Positions 53,497-57,466 of a DNA stretch of 64,000 nucleotides are shown here, one piece after another (the stretch's first letter is position 1; each line of letters begins with the position of its first letter). This DNA is from Alkalihalobacillus sp. FSL W8-0930 (lineage in GTDB: Bacteria > Bacillota > Bacilli > Bacillales > Bacillaceae_D). A model generated the notes under the pieces. The model worked only from the letters and a program-made list of their open reading frames with translations. It searched no databases and was not told where the DNA came from. The position numbers and the translations under genes were made by a program. The DNA lies in assembly GCA_037965595.1 (NCBI GenBank), contig CP150183.1:2852001-2916000 (forward strand), read 5' to 3'.

Positions 53497-55134
53497 GTGA
53501 AACAAGTTAAAAAGGTAGAAACCAAAGAGAAAATTGAAAACGCTGCAATTGCTCTTTTTAGAGAAAAAGGGTTTGATCGTACAACCGTTCAGGAGATTAC
53601 ATCAGCTGCCCATGTAGCAAAAGGAACCTTTTTTAACTACTTTCCGACAAAAGATTCCATAATGCACTCCCTTGCTAAAGAACGTTTAACAAGTGTGATG
53701 AAGCATATCCAACAATACCCTAGAAATCAATTACAGCTGTCAAACCGCATTCATTCCTATTTATATTTTATTCTTGATGAGTATGACCAACATCCTACGT
53801 TAACGATTCAAATGTGGAAATTTGTTGTGGACAATGAGGATCTACTCTTATCTCATTGGCGTGACATGCTTTTTGAAGCACTAAACAAGCAAGAGCTTAT
53901 CCCTGGAACGGACATTGAGCTTTGGGCACATATTATCCACTCTCATGTATCGTACGGAATTCAATTGTATGCGAAAGAACCGACACGGATCCGATTATTA
54001 ACCCGCGTAATGGCATTGGTCGAAGCAAGCTTATCTGCTGTTATGGCGAAAAGGAGTAAACCTCATATGGAAAAACTAGTTATACTTGGAGCTGGGTATG
54101 GCGGTATGCGTGTTATGCAACGCCTTCTGCCTAATGACCTGCCTGACCATGTTGAAATTACCTTGATTGACCGCTTGCCGTATCACTGCTTAAAAACAGA
54201 ATACTATGCTCTTGCTGCAGGAACAGCTGCAGACCATCATCTGCGTGTAGCCTTTCCAGAAGACTCTCGCTTAAAAGTGAAATATGCAAATATCGAATCT
54301 GTTGAACTTGAGGATAAAACCATTGTTCTTGATAGCGGAGAATCCGTTCCATTTGATAAATTGATCATCGGTCTCGGATGCGAGGACAAGTACCACGGTG
54401 TTCCTGGCGCAAAGGAAAATGCCTATAGCATTCAAACAATGGAAGCCACTCGCAAAACCTATGAAGCCCTAAACAACGTCCGCCCTGAAGGCGTCGTATC
54501 CATTGTCGGAGGTGGATTGAGCGGAGTCGAGCTAGCCAGTGAGCTTCGTGAAAGCCGACCAGACCTTACAATTAAGCTTTTTGACCGCGGCGAAATGATC
54601 CTATCCTCCTTCCCTAAAAAGCTTAGTACCTACGTACAAGGCTGGTTCGAGGATCACGGGGTAGAGATCGTAAACAAATCAAACATCACCAAAGTAGAGC
54701 CAAATGCCATCTATAATCACGATGAACGAATTGATGTTGATGCCGTCATTTGGACAGCAGGAATTCAGCCTGTCAAAGTGGTTCGCGAATTGGACGTCGC
54801 TTTTGACTCCTCTGGACGTGTCGAACTAACACCACAACACTTCCTCCCTGGAAACGAAGACGTTTTCGTAGTAGGTGACTGTGCGAGCCTGCCTCATGCA
54901 CCAAGTGCTCAACTCGCAGAAGGGCAGGCCGAGCAAATCGTTCAAATCCTAAAGGCTCAATGGAACAACGAAACCTTACCAGCAGAGCTACCAAAAATAA
55001 AATTAAAAGGAGTCCTTGGCTCCCTAGGCAAAAAGCACGGCTTCGGCCTAATGGGCGAACGCACATTGCTCGGACGAGTACCGCGCGTCCTTAAAAGTGG
55101 TGTGCTTTGGATGTACAAGTATCACTCCGGTTGA
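53497..55134 (+). CDS. yutJ: TetR-type regulator fused in frame to type II NADH dehydrogenase (YutJ)
   Basis: One 545-codon frame holds two complete proteins. Residues 1-190 are a TetR repressor: HTH with IENAAIALFREKGFDRTTVQEITSAA and GTFFNYFPTKDSIMHSL, then an all-helical ligand domain. Residues 191-545 are an NDH-2/YutJ enzyme of normal length: FAD motif [15 protein letters not shown] motif VSIVGGGLSGVELASEL, VFVVGDCASL. An internal ATG (54067) has its own ribosome site AAAAGGAG 10 nt upstream, so the enzyme can also be made alone. A shift of one base would place a TAA (at about 54057) right before it, so a frameshift from an ordinary two-gene operon is possible. Start GTG behind AAGGAGAG. 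Confidence 0.85.
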   Translation: MKQVKKVETKEKIENAAIALFREKGFDRTTVQEITSAAHVAKGTFFNYFPTKDSIMHSLAKERLTSVMKHIQQYPRNQLQLSNRIHSYLYFILDEYDQHPTLTIQMWKFVVDNEDLLLSHWRDMLFEALNKQELIPGTDIELWAHIIHSHVSYGIQLYAKEPTRIRLLTRVMALVEASLSAVMAKRSKPHMEKLVILGAGYGGMRVMQRLLPNDLPDHVEITLIDRLPYHCLKTEYYALAAGTAADHHLRVAFPEDSRLKVKYANIESVELEDKTIVLDSGESVPFDKLIIGLGCEDKYHGVPGAKENAYSIQTMEATRKTYEALNNVRPEGVVSIVGGGLSGVELASELRESRPDLTIKLFDRGEMILSSFPKKLSTYVQGWFEDHGVEIVNKSNITKVEPNAIYNHDERIDVDAVIWTAGIQPVKVVRELDVAFDSSGRVELTPQHFLPGNEDVFVVGDCASLPHAPSAQLAEGQAEQIVQILKAQWNNETLPAELPKIKLKGVLGSLGKKHGFGLMGERTLLGRVPRVLKSGVLWMYKYHSG

Positions 55135-55144
55135 TGATTGATAT

Positions 55145-55177
55145 GAGTAGTAGACAGTGTCTACTACTCTTTTTTTG
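55145..55177 (+). terminator. Terminator of the TetR-NDH gene
   Basis: Near-perfect inverted repeat GAGTAGTAGACA / TGTCTACTACTC (55145-55169) followed by a run of eight T residues. Confidence 0.9.
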
Positions 55178-55210: not shown

Positions 55211-55326
55211 TTTCTTGGTTAGGTGCTGATGATTCTTCTTGCTGTGCTCCCGAACGTTCTTGGTATCCCACTCTAGCCTCTTGCTATCGGAGCTCGCTTC
55301 TTGGTAATTCTGCTTTCTTGAGGTTA
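55211..55326. repeat. Left part of the 20-21-bp phased CTTG array
   Basis: CTTG cores begin at 55214, 55238, 55259, 55280, 55300 and 55317. Units here are near copies of units at 56877-56960 beyond the IS (for example the shared GTGCTCCCGAACGTTCTTGG and GGAGCTCGCTTCTTGGTAA). Not coding as far as I can see. Confidence 0.8.
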
Positions 55327-55395
55327 GTCTAAAAAGTGGACACGTTAATTTGATTCTTTGTACACTAAATCTAATCTGACAAAGGACGTGTTCCG

Positions 55396-55686
55396 ATGAC
55401 GAAAAAGTATTCCCTTGATTATCGTGAGTATGTGGCGAAGTTAATCATCGAAGAAGGTAAAAAGGCGAGCGACATGGCGTATGAATTGGAAGTTCATGTG
55501 TCCTCCATCCACCGCTGGGTTCAAGATTATAAGAAGAAACAAGAAAAGCCAAATTCAGGTGATTATTTGACGCCGTCCGAAGTGGAAAAGTTAAAAAAGC
55601 ATCATGAAAAGGAAATGCTCTCTCTTCGAGAGGAGAACGAGATCTTAAAAAAGGCCATGCACATCTTCACGCAAAAGCCCAAATAA
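55396..55686 (+). CDS. IS3 transposase OrfA (helix-turn-helix part)
   Basis: A 96-residue protein with a helix-turn-helix (YSLDYREYVAKLIIEEGKKASDMAYELEVHVSSIHRWV) and a leucine-zipper-like helix (LSLREENEILKKAM), as in OrfA of IS3 elements. Near its end a slippery heptamer A-AAA-AAG (55647-55653, in phase with TTA-AAA-AAG) allows a -1 shift into the transposase frame, which stays open from that point. The usual product of the shift is the OrfAB transposase. Confidence 0.93.
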   Translation: MTKKYSLDYREYVAKLIIEEGKKASDMAYELEVHVSSIHRWVQDYKKKQEKPNSGDYLTPSEVEKLKKHHEKEMLSLREENEILKKAMHIFTQKPK

Positions 55687-55697
55687 AATTTCATTTC

Positions 55698-56585
55698 ATG
55701 GATGCTCATCAAGATGAACATTCCATTGTGAAGATGTGTTCAGTCCTTCAAGTCTCGACCAGTGGATTCTACAAGTGGAAAGCCAAGCTACGTGGTGGGA
55801 AAACAGAGAGTGAAAAACGTAAAGCGAACTTAAAAAAGAAGATTAGTCAGTCGTTCCATGAGAGCTTGGCCACGTACGGAAGTCCTCGTGTCCATCAGGA
55901 TTTAATCGAATGGGGCTATGTGATTTCGCAGAAAACGGTGGCGCGATATATGCAAGAAATGAAGGTCAGCGCAAAACCTAAAGCTAGATATGTCGTCACA
56001 ACGGATTCTACGCACACTCTACATGTGTATCCCAATCTGCTGAAGCGAGTGTTTGAAGCTGCGTACCCAAATGCCATATGGGTAACAGATATTACGTATG
56101 TCCGGACTTTAGAGGGCTGGTTATACGTCGCATCCATTATGGACCTGTTTTCCCGAAAAATTGTGGGCTTGAATATGAGTAACTCTATGGGAAAAGACCT
56201 TGTGTTACACGCTCTTGAGCGTGCGATAGCGACTAGACGCCCCCCGGAGGGGCTTATCCATCACTCTGATCGAGGATCTCAATATTGTTCGAACGAGTAC
56301 ATTGAGGTACTGACTCAAGCGAAAGCCACCATAAGCATGAGCCGAAAAGGCGATCCTTATGACAATGCGTGTATTGAATCGTTTCACGCAACCATTAAAA
56401 GAGAACTTATTTATCGCTTTCGATTTCAAACAAGAAACGAGGCGATGAAATCTATTCATCATTATATTTATAGTCGATACAATGAAACGAGAAGGCATTC
56501 CACTTTGAACTATCAATCCCCGAACCAATTTGAGAGAACCTATGCCAAAAGGATTAATCATGACTCGCAAAAAACAATTAGTTAG
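55698..56585 (+). CDS. IS3 transposase OrfB (DDE integrase core)
   Basis: A 295-residue catalytic half, in the -1 frame relative to OrfA. The rve integrase core has the DDE triad: D in WVTDITYV, D in HHSDRGSQY and E in NACIESFHATIK; the C-terminal YNETRRHSTLNYQSP is the typical IS3 ending. An N-terminal HTH_21 segment (TYGSPRVHQDLIEWGYVISQKTV) is present. Full length, no stop; likely functional. The OrfAB fusion would start in the frame at 55653. Confidence 0.95.
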   Translation: MDAHQDEHSIVKMCSVLQVSTSGFYKWKAKLRGGKTESEKRKANLKKKISQSFHESLATYGSPRVHQDLIEWGYVISQKTVARYMQEMKVSAKPKARYVVTTDSTHTLHVYPNLLKRVFEAAYPNAIWVTDITYVRTLEGWLYVASIMDLFSRKIVGLNMSNSMGKDLVLHALERAIATRRPPEGLIHHSDRGSQYCSNEYIEVLTQAKATISMSRKGDPYDNACIESFHATIKRELIYRFRFQTRNEAMKSIHHYIYSRYNETRRHSTLNYQSPNQFERTYAKRINHDSQKTIS

Positions 56586-56698
56586 ACAAAAGTAAGTTAT
56601 CCCCCGACTTTTAGATAAGATCTCATCTGTCGAGGTAGAGCCAGTAATGTAGGCTTTGAGAGAAATCACTCTTACTTTTTAGTGTCCACTTTCTTGAC

Positions 56699-57100
56699 AG
56701 AAGACCATTCTTCCTTGATAAGAAGGGGCTTTTCTTGTTGTAGAGTCCTCTGCTCTTGCTATTTTCTGCGTTCCTCTTAGTAACGCTCTCTCCTTCTTGC
56801 TAAATTTTAAAAAGGTCTTGGTGTTCCTCTCAAAGTTCTTGCTATTACGCCGGTTCTTGCTTGGGTGCCGGTTATTCTTGCTGTGCTCCCGAACGTTCTT
56901 GGTATCCCACACTGGCCTCTTGCGACCGGAGCTCGCTTCTTGGTAACTCTGCTTTTCTCCTTGGTATCAGGGGGCTTTTCTTGTTGCCCAGTCCTCTGCT
57001 CTTGCTATTTTCTACGTTCCTCTTGGTAACGCTCCCTCCTTCTTTTTAAATGTTCAAAAGGTCTTAGTGTTCCTCCCAAAGTTCTTGCTAACACGCCCTA
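56699..57100. repeat. Right part of the 20-21-bp phased CTTG array, with 246-bp higher-order repeat
   Basis: CTTG (or a one-base variant) begins at 56714, 56734, 56755, 56776, 56796, 56817, 56838, 56856, 56877, 56898, 56919, 56939, 56960, 56980, 57001, 57022, 57042, 57063 and 57084: nearly every interval is 20 or 21, mean about 20.6. Read on the minus strand the units are A-[CG]-CAAGA-R plus about 13 variable bases. The block 56714-56838 repeats at 56960-57084, exactly 246 bp (12 units) later. No gene is supported; a minus-strand frame of 77 codons (56679-56912) only mirrors the period. Confidence 0.85.
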
Positions 57101-57136: not shown

Positions 57137-57165
57137 CAAAAAAGCCACGATCTACATCGCGGCTT
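57137..57165 (-). terminator. Terminator overlapping the yuzD stop codon
   Basis: A 10-bp stem (57142-57151 with 57156-57165, one G-U), loop of four that contains part of the yuzD stop codon, and a U run on the minus strand. Confidence 0.75.
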
Positions 57166-57466
57166 CGACTTTGGCTGAGACTGATTTTAAATTGGGGTTT
57201 CCTTCTGCAATGACCTCACCGTTTAATACAAGGAGAGGGTAGAAGTATTCGTCGTTTAAGATCGCTTCTGAAAAGGATTGGTGCTCTTCGTTATCAGTGG
57301 GTTGTTCAATGTCTACGTAGTGAACGTCTAGGTCTGCATTCGGGAATTTGCGGTTGAGTGCGGCCTCTAGCCATTCTTTTGTTTCAATGGCGCTCGGTAA
57401 GTGTACGCAGCTTGCGCACTTTTGTACTGCTCCATATATCGTTAGTTGAATTCCGATCGTTCTCAC
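57152..57466 (-). CDS. yuzD: YuzD family protein (DUF1462, thioredoxin-like)
   Basis: A 104-residue protein with the pattern IYGAVQKCASCVHLPSAIETKEWLEAAL (CASC at about 18-21) and EYFYPLLVLNGEVIAEGNP, known for YuzD, with a glutaredoxin-like fold. Its role is unknown; the context (divergent from the Fe-S protein YutI) suggests Fe-S or redox work. The start is a GTG at 57466 behind AGGAGAGGAA. Confidence 0.85.
   Translation of the reverse strand: MRTIGIQLTIYGAVQKCASCVHLPSAIETKEWLEAALNRKFPNADLDVHYVDIEQPTDNEEHQSFSEAILNDEYFYPLLVLNGEVIAEGNPNLKSVSAKVEAAM

Follow-up and report, generated by a model that had tools for sequence, protein, structure and literature searches.

The window analysed here is the whole 64-kb stretch (64,000 nucleotides) taken from the source genome, termed G000; all positions are those of the whole window and refer to the + strand unless stated otherwise. 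The presence of a repeat array at 55212-57097 was confirmed. The array fills the gap between two convergent genes, encoding an NADH dehydrogenase-like (NDH) and a DUF1462 protein, is flanked by two terminator-like hairpins and is split by an IS3-type insertion sequence (IS). The locus contains the following features:

54067-55134, + strand: NADH dehydrogenase-like gene (Pyr_redox_2, Pfam PF07992), 3' end towards the array
55145-55177, + strand: terminator-like hairpin and T-run 3' of the NDH gene, left border of the array; perfect 12-bp inverted repeat, Ts seen by eye
55212-55318, + strand: left part of the array, with five TCTTG cores at 55213, 55237, 55258, 55279 and 55299
55315-55318 (left) and 56708-56711 (right), + strand: TTCT, 4-bp target duplication of the IS; junctions by eye
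55319-56707, + strand: IS3-type insertion sequence, ends determined; HTH_Tnp_1 and rve domains
55396-55686 and 55698-56585, + strand: orfA and orfB of the IS3-type element
56712-57097, + strand: right part of the array, with 19 core slots at 56713-57083 in 20- or 21-bp steps and one 18-bp step
56712-56851, + strand: copy 1 of a 246-bp super-repeat; copy 2 is 56958-57097, 87% identity over 140 bp
56872-56955, + strand: match to the left part (55233-55316) inside the right part, 93% identity over 84 bp
57138-57163, - strand: probable terminator-like hairpin and T-run 3' of DUF1462, right border of the array; by eye
57152-57466, - strand: DUF1462 gene (Pfam PF07315), 3' end towards the array and convergent with NDH; match in five of five genomes of the genus

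An earlier note on this DNA had described a CAAGA core, the complement of TCTTG, recurring every 20-21 bp. The + strand of the window indeed contains 12 TCTTG pairs 20 or 21 bp apart, while 300 dinucleotide shuffles of the window have 0.34 such pairs on average and never more than 2. Without the array no such pair is left on the + strand, and the - strand of the window has a single one, 21 bp apart. The 19 units counted in the right part were recovered as 14 exact TCTTG cores and five variants, namely CCTTG at 56713 and 56959, TCTTA at 56775 and 57062 and TCTTT at 57041. The spacing, which had been called strict, holds for most steps but is broken by one 18-bp (56837 to 56855) and one 24-bp step (55213 to 55237), and of the six units placed left of the IS only five are cores, while the sixth at 55316, 17 bp past the previous core, is the insertion-sequence junction. 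The block returning after 246 bp and the left-part units matching the right part had both been read correctly. The proposed 12-unit super-repeat is a real 246-bp tandem, but a local one; the usual unit in G000 and the related genome G001 has 232-234 bp with 12 cores. Tandem Repeats Finder (TRF) at score 30 gave no row in 55211-57100. The five window proteins scanned with Pfam were NDH, DUF1462, NifU-like and IS proteins, with no rep, par or cas-type protein among them.

Distribution and genomic placement

The window array is a member of a dispersed family of non-coding arrays present in all five Alkalicoccobacillus genomes, three of which (G000, G001 and G004) are assigned to the genus by their genus label only. 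The core of the family is YCTTG-N-T, repeated every 20 or 21 bp. A pattern of three such cores has 61 matches in 18 clusters in G000, in comparison to 3 for the reversed pattern. Among 41 genomes of the taxonomic family, match numbers are 61, 56, 207, 512 and 1053 for those of the own genus and 0-3 for the other 36, except for G045 (6) and G023 (22), whose matches represent different units (TCTTGTCC... and TCTTGCTCACATCC...). With a stricter pattern, six of 397 genomes of the order matched, namely the three of the own genus in that set, G188 (1 match), G074 (26) and G267 (98). The latter two have, among the matches listed, exact 21-bp TCTTGCTACAC units; in 400 kb at TRF score 100, each of the two has a single 21-bp array within an open frame, and G267 has one intergenic 39-bp repeat as well. 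In 400 kb from G010, G018, G021, G028 and G031 no such array was found. Most stretches of G000, G001, G002 and G004 were picked around TCTTG arrays. In random stretches, the 20/21-bp signal appeared in G004 (41 and 62 bp) and in G000 (40 bp), and those of G002 had none. The autocorrelation in relatives suggested by the earlier note was run and is positive within the genus.

A wider search for a 20-21 bp spacing pattern matched at least 120 stretches, and 26 places were inspected. Among the matches listed, arrays with other letters occur in Gracilibacillus, Fictibacillus, Sporosarcina, Oceanobacillus, Halobacillus, Pontibacillus, some Bacteroidota and other MAGs. Several of the inspected places turned out to be something else, such as 10-bp repeats or coding frames. 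For this reason, and because the pattern itself demanded 20-21 bp, a wider class across taxa is a lead only. Eight loci with such arrays (L103, L111, L112, L099, L118, L125, L080 and L089) belong to Gracilibacillus, Fictibacillus, Sporosarcina, Marinilabiliaceae, Flammeovirgaceae and Thermoanaerobaculia.

Placement relative to genes, taken as long open frames without annotation, was determined for the arrays called in stretches of G000, G002 and G004. The array finder, seeded from the core, called 79 arrays on real and 10 on reversed sequence; the 79 rows include L050:4249, whose core is a different one, and two entries for L215:3887-4117, one per strand. Three arrays without a flanking frame were left out, and 76 have one on both sides. 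Of these, 39 lie between convergent gene ends, compared with 19 of 161 control gaps (p = 3e-10), and 7 lie in divergent gaps, compared with 43 of 161 (p = 0.002). A terminator-like hairpin stands between gene and array at 66 of 102 facing gene ends and at 6 of 43 gene starts. With the same loose criteria, such hairpins are also present within 39 of 75 arrays.

The orthologous NDH/DUF1462 gap contains an array in all five species. The orientation of these arrays to the genes is constant and their unit content is very different, with a super-period of 246 bp in G000, about 62 bp in G003 (by eye) and, by hairpin spacing, 314 bp in G002 and 316 bp in G004. Of 15 G001 loci examined, 12 can be aligned to a G000 stretch in which an array occupies the matching place, and L295, L304 and L306 have no partner among the G000 stretches compared.

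By local GC skew, 17 of 19 G000 arrays (two of these with skew near zero) have TCTTG on the strand opposite to the leading one; by chromosome half, this holds for 16 of 18 clusters. Replication polarity was dropped as a general rule because it is weak in G004 (19/30) and G002 (17/27). As a separate observation, 15 of the 18 TCTTG clusters of G000 lie at most 0.7 Mb from the contig ends, where the origin presumably lies according to GC skew (p = 5e-5). On contig C1 of G004, among the matches listed, TCTTG is mostly on the - strand between 471 and 1746 kb (exceptions near 497, 956 and 1520 kb) and always on the + strand between 1832 and 2715 kb; GC skew in the array stretches fetched is negative throughout despite this strand switch.

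Array anatomy, conservation and related repeats

When any step of 16-26 bp is admitted, 1141 of 1256 steps measure 20 or 21 bp. The two lengths alternate (707 unlike versus 347 like neighbours) and their units differ in consensus, YCTTGGTAWCR... for 20 bp and TCTTGSTN...TTC for 21 bp, and the underlying period is therefore often 41 bp. The periodicity of core distances remains sharp over a range of at least 164 bp, with a best period of 20.55 bp, in agreement with the two-turn phasing that the earlier note had proposed; weaker off-phase distances occur, e.g. 14, 27, 35, 47, 55, 88 and 132 bp. The orientation of the cores is uniform within each array. When arrays are split at 30-bp gaps, 25 of 48 pieces (G000, 15 of 26; G001, 10 of 22) have the 232-234 bp of a 12-core module. 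The step order 21,21,20,21,20,21,21,20,21,21 is found whole in 3 of 15 module-size pieces of G000, 8 of 10 of G001, 1 of 4 of G004 and 0 of 15 of G002, and several other such pieces have part of it or a 22-bp variant; the pieces of G002 follow an order of their own. The full 11-step word (12 cores) is present in six G001 and two G000 copies, and ten of its steps in one G004 copy. Among 36 distinct mixed spacing words, 18 are balanced, compared with 5.3 expected at random order; these words are not independent because they overlap and partly descend by copying.

Some modules carry a tail motif. An AAAATGnnCATTTT hairpin with TTCCTTA has 39 matches in four of the 41 family genomes, all of the own genus, and none in G003 or the 36 others; in G000, G002 and G004 it is located between tandem modules. 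The inverted repeat stands at module ends with variable middle bases in L048, L050, L051, L187 and L188, and L056 has an altered stem (AAACGT/ACGTTT). Read on the other strand, the motif resembles a ribosome-binding site with ATG, and two frames read by eye are short.

Conservation was determined between G000 and G001, the two closest species, on those five of 12 orthologous pairs that are colinear and equal in copy number; the L056/L301 pair was excluded because its copy number differs. In these five pairs, 2 of 135 sites differ at core positions 1-3 and 13 of 225 at positions 1-4 and 6, compared with 140 of 559 in the spacers and 701 of 5626 in the flanks (core versus spacer, p = 4e-11). Conservation is lower than at positions 1-3 for position 4 (7/45), position 6 (4/45) and the two edge positions 0 and 5 (19/90 together). 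When the comparison was extended to 13 arrays, whose tandem copies may not be aligned in register, 57/870 core and 444/1553 spacer sites differed. Of 40 orthologous core-to-core intervals, 39 are identical in length. Whole arrays diverge by 22.6% in comparison to 10.4% for other non-coding DNA. Gap events per substitution are 0.063 in arrays versus 0.125 in other non-coding DNA, and per 100 aligned bases 1.43 versus 1.30; of the eight gap events inside the five colinear arrays, six are +1/-1 pairs within 9 bp and may be alignment effects. The preservation of core and spacing but not of their surroundings suggests that a repeating protein may recognise the double helix. In this respect the earlier idea of a landing strip is supported, since spacers diverge while core and spacing are conserved.

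Arrays of the same period with other cores are present in the same genomes. We considered intergenic tandem repeats with a score of at least 100 in the G000, G002 and G004 stretches that the array finder did not assign to TCTTG arrays and that lie outside frames of 120 residues or longer. Thirteen of these 14 strong repeats have a period of 20, 40, 41, 81, 82, 120 or 123 bp; the lone exception has 108 bp, and weaker intergenic repeats (score 50-99) have mixed periods. The number of independent families is below 13 (by eye at least eight), because the L222 unit holds TCTTG and some repeats share a core. No such strong intergenic repeat was found in 400 kb of the five other genomes (G010, G018, G021, G028 and G031). 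Examples in G000 are L043:4379-4562 (82 bp), L043:5652-5840 (40 bp), L043:18812-18997 (81 bp), L053:991-1181 (41 bp), L056:1844-1923 (41 bp) and L057:14845-15068 (120 bp). In 17 other-core arrays the oscillation of GC content is strongest with a period of about 10 bp, half the repeat length (mean power 12.7 versus 4.2-9.2 at the remaining harmonics), while in 64 TCTTG arrays the 10.25-bp harmonic is not above the others. We made no use of the helical GC harmonic because it is the highest of six in the former set and not in the latter.

The IS of the window, searched by its left end with one mismatch allowed, has four copies in G000 and none in G001. Three of the four are flanked left and right by array cores; next to the fourth, an array is present on one side, and the opposite side has two degenerate YAAG sites at a distance of 21 bp. 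As judged by eye, the distance between the start of the 4-bp duplications (CCAG, CGCG, TTCT and CCAC) and a YAAG core is 1-2 nt. Five matches to the transposase were found in G000 (window 55319-56707; L042, L043/L044, L054 and L360), four with 96-100% and one with 69% identity, and all lie in or beside 20/21- or 39/40-bp arrays; array bases called in the G000 stretches amount to 6,714 of 3.885 Mb. The 69% match has one stop and lies inside a 39/40-bp array with another core. In G001, G002 and G003 no transposase match was found. G004 has four distant homologues (28-33%), one inside a TCTTG array, one with a 20-bp array about 470 bp past the end of its frame and two without an array.

What the arrays may be

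With known REP/BIME elements, whose associated transposase is RAYT, the arrays share that they are dispersed, short, intergenic, non-coding and near gene ends (39/76 convergent, 7/76 divergent). While REPs are palindromes, the array core is not palindromic, folding is not above that of shuffles, an inverted repeat occurs only in the tail motif of some modules, and the defining feature of the arrays is the two-turn spacing. Plasmid iterons and ParR-bound centromere repeats are direct repeats about two turns apart that are bound cooperatively. The arrays are direct repeats of comparable spacing (best period 20.55 bp) and may work in a similar mode, but they exist in many chromosomal copies at gene ends, and at the window locus no initiator or partition gene is adjacent. 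CRISPR loci consist of identical repeats of about 23-47 bp that are separated by unique spacers of comparable size. The arrays resemble them in the alternation of short conserved and variable segments, but the core has 5-7 bp and the unit 20-21 bp, and the variable parts recur across loci. Some arrays of relatives are near-perfect tandems of 41, 61 or 82 bp like minisatellites or VNTRs, whereas the window array gave no TRF row and conservation is confined to core and spacing. KOPS, SRS and Chi are replication-oriented motifs, which the strand preference in G000 (17/19 arrays) resembles; this preference is weak in G004 (19/30) and G002 (17/27), and the array motif sits in arrays. The definitions of REP-type elements, CRISPR and minisatellites do not apply to the arrays, and no description of them was found in the open-access literature. 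Insertion of specific IS elements into REP sequences is described in one study (PMC1525189).

The evolutionary behaviour of the arrays might be that of neutral or selfish minisatellite-like DNA, which would arise by slippage or unequal recombination, spread as copies, keep its 20/21 pattern by descent and persist at gene ends as the least harmful places. The super-period varying among species in the NDH/DUF1462 gap (246, about 62, 314 and 316 bp), the faster divergence of arrays (22.6% versus 10.4%) with gaps per base not rarer, and the tolerance of insertion sequences are in line with this. Yet neutral decay should strike core and spacer alike, while 2/135 core and 140/559 spacer sites differ; 39 of 40 intervals are unchanged in length, and repeats with unrelated cores have the same period. 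We consider a neutral or selfish origin unlikely. Even less probable is a mobile repeat of the REP/BIME or miniature-transposon type, in which a transposase would move the 12-core module, in some copies together with the AAAATGnnCATTTT hairpin. The 232-234 bp size of 25 of 48 pieces in G000 and G001 and the hairpin with TTCCTTA in four of 41 family genomes, all of the own genus (39 matches), speak for such an element, whereas the core is not palindromic and 12 of 15 G001 loci share the array place with G000, so that recent movement looks rare.

Transcripts of the arrays could also offer UCUUG or CAAGA sites to an RNA-binding protein, in the manner of sponge RNAs. Arrays adjoin gene 3' ends with one core orientation per array, and terminator-like hairpins lie within 39 of 75 arrays (loose scan), so that the arrays may be transcribed. 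Against this RNA-level function, to which we give a small chance, a terminator-like hairpin precedes the array at 66 of the 102 gene ends that face one. RNA structure is unsupported in the 34 arrays folded: median z-scores on the two strands are -0.10 and -0.18, and 6/34 and 4/34 arrays fall below -2. Repetitive coding sequence with a 7-residue period, as relic or in current use, had been considered in the earlier note, and a 77-residue frame with SKN repeats does exist on the - strand (56679-56912). This frame runs into the insertion sequence, 20-bp steps alternate with 21-bp steps and break the frame, any of six frames is open in just 20 of 79 arrays, and orthologous gaps differ in unit content; the coding explanation is rejected and its remaining probability is negligible. 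Intrinsically curved DNA, likewise proposed earlier, would be in line with the fact that any sequence repeated every two turns sums its bends. The wedge model (the shuffles of each array drawn with one seed) gave 0.313 deg/bp for arrays in comparison to 0.326 for shuffles, 0.371 for other intergenic DNA and 0.334 for genes. Curvature is unsupported by these values and very improbable as an explanation.

With somewhat better than even confidence, we propose that the arrays are one-face, two-turn docking strips at gene ends for a putative cooperative DNA-binding protein. The conservation of motif and spacing while the letters between them change suggests such strips. The YCTTG-N-T site would recur at two-turn intervals along the same helix face, commonly 12 times, and each core might be bound by one unit of the protein. 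Copies of the protein could stack on this face into a regular rod- or coil-shaped nucleoprotein structure, which would span about 230 bp or multiples of this length. The role of the docking strip is probably architectural: located between transcription units, it might serve chromosome architecture or insulation as bracing, as a topological spacer or as a segregation-type site. IS3-type elements would use the strips as landing places. Our confidence in the anatomy of the arrays is higher than in this docking mechanism. Points that weigh against the mechanism are the off-phase core distances, the 18- and 24-bp steps of the window array, gap events that per base are about as common in arrays as in other non-coding DNA, the weaker conservation of core positions 4 and 6 and of the edges, the lack of a raised 10.25-bp GC harmonic in TCTTG arrays, the dependence among the spacing words and the 10 arrays called on reversed sequence. 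Taken together, the interpretation of the earlier note is partly supported; it had not foreseen the genus-wide dispersal, the 12-core modules, the convergent gene ends, the other core families of the same period and the IS3-type insertions.

More tentatively, we speculate that the docking strips belong to a general class of phased strips that is defined by the two-turn spacing and not by the letters, and that would scaffold a regular nucleoprotein coil at gene ends for chromosome architecture, with 12 sites in the usual module and similar to the complex on a plasmid centromere. This extension builds on several unrelated cores that share a 20/41-bp period in one genome, and on one IS family that enters arrays with two different cores.

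If the docking-strip explanation is true, ordinary bacteria would contain a dispersed nucleoprotein element that can be read from sequence alone, whose number of sites is defined and whose helical phase is maintained by selection. The content of the space between convergent genes and the spacing of bacterial chromatin there would become directly testable by protein capture with array fragments. Tandem intergenic DNA that is usually dismissed as minisatellite could then be constrained in core and spacing alone.
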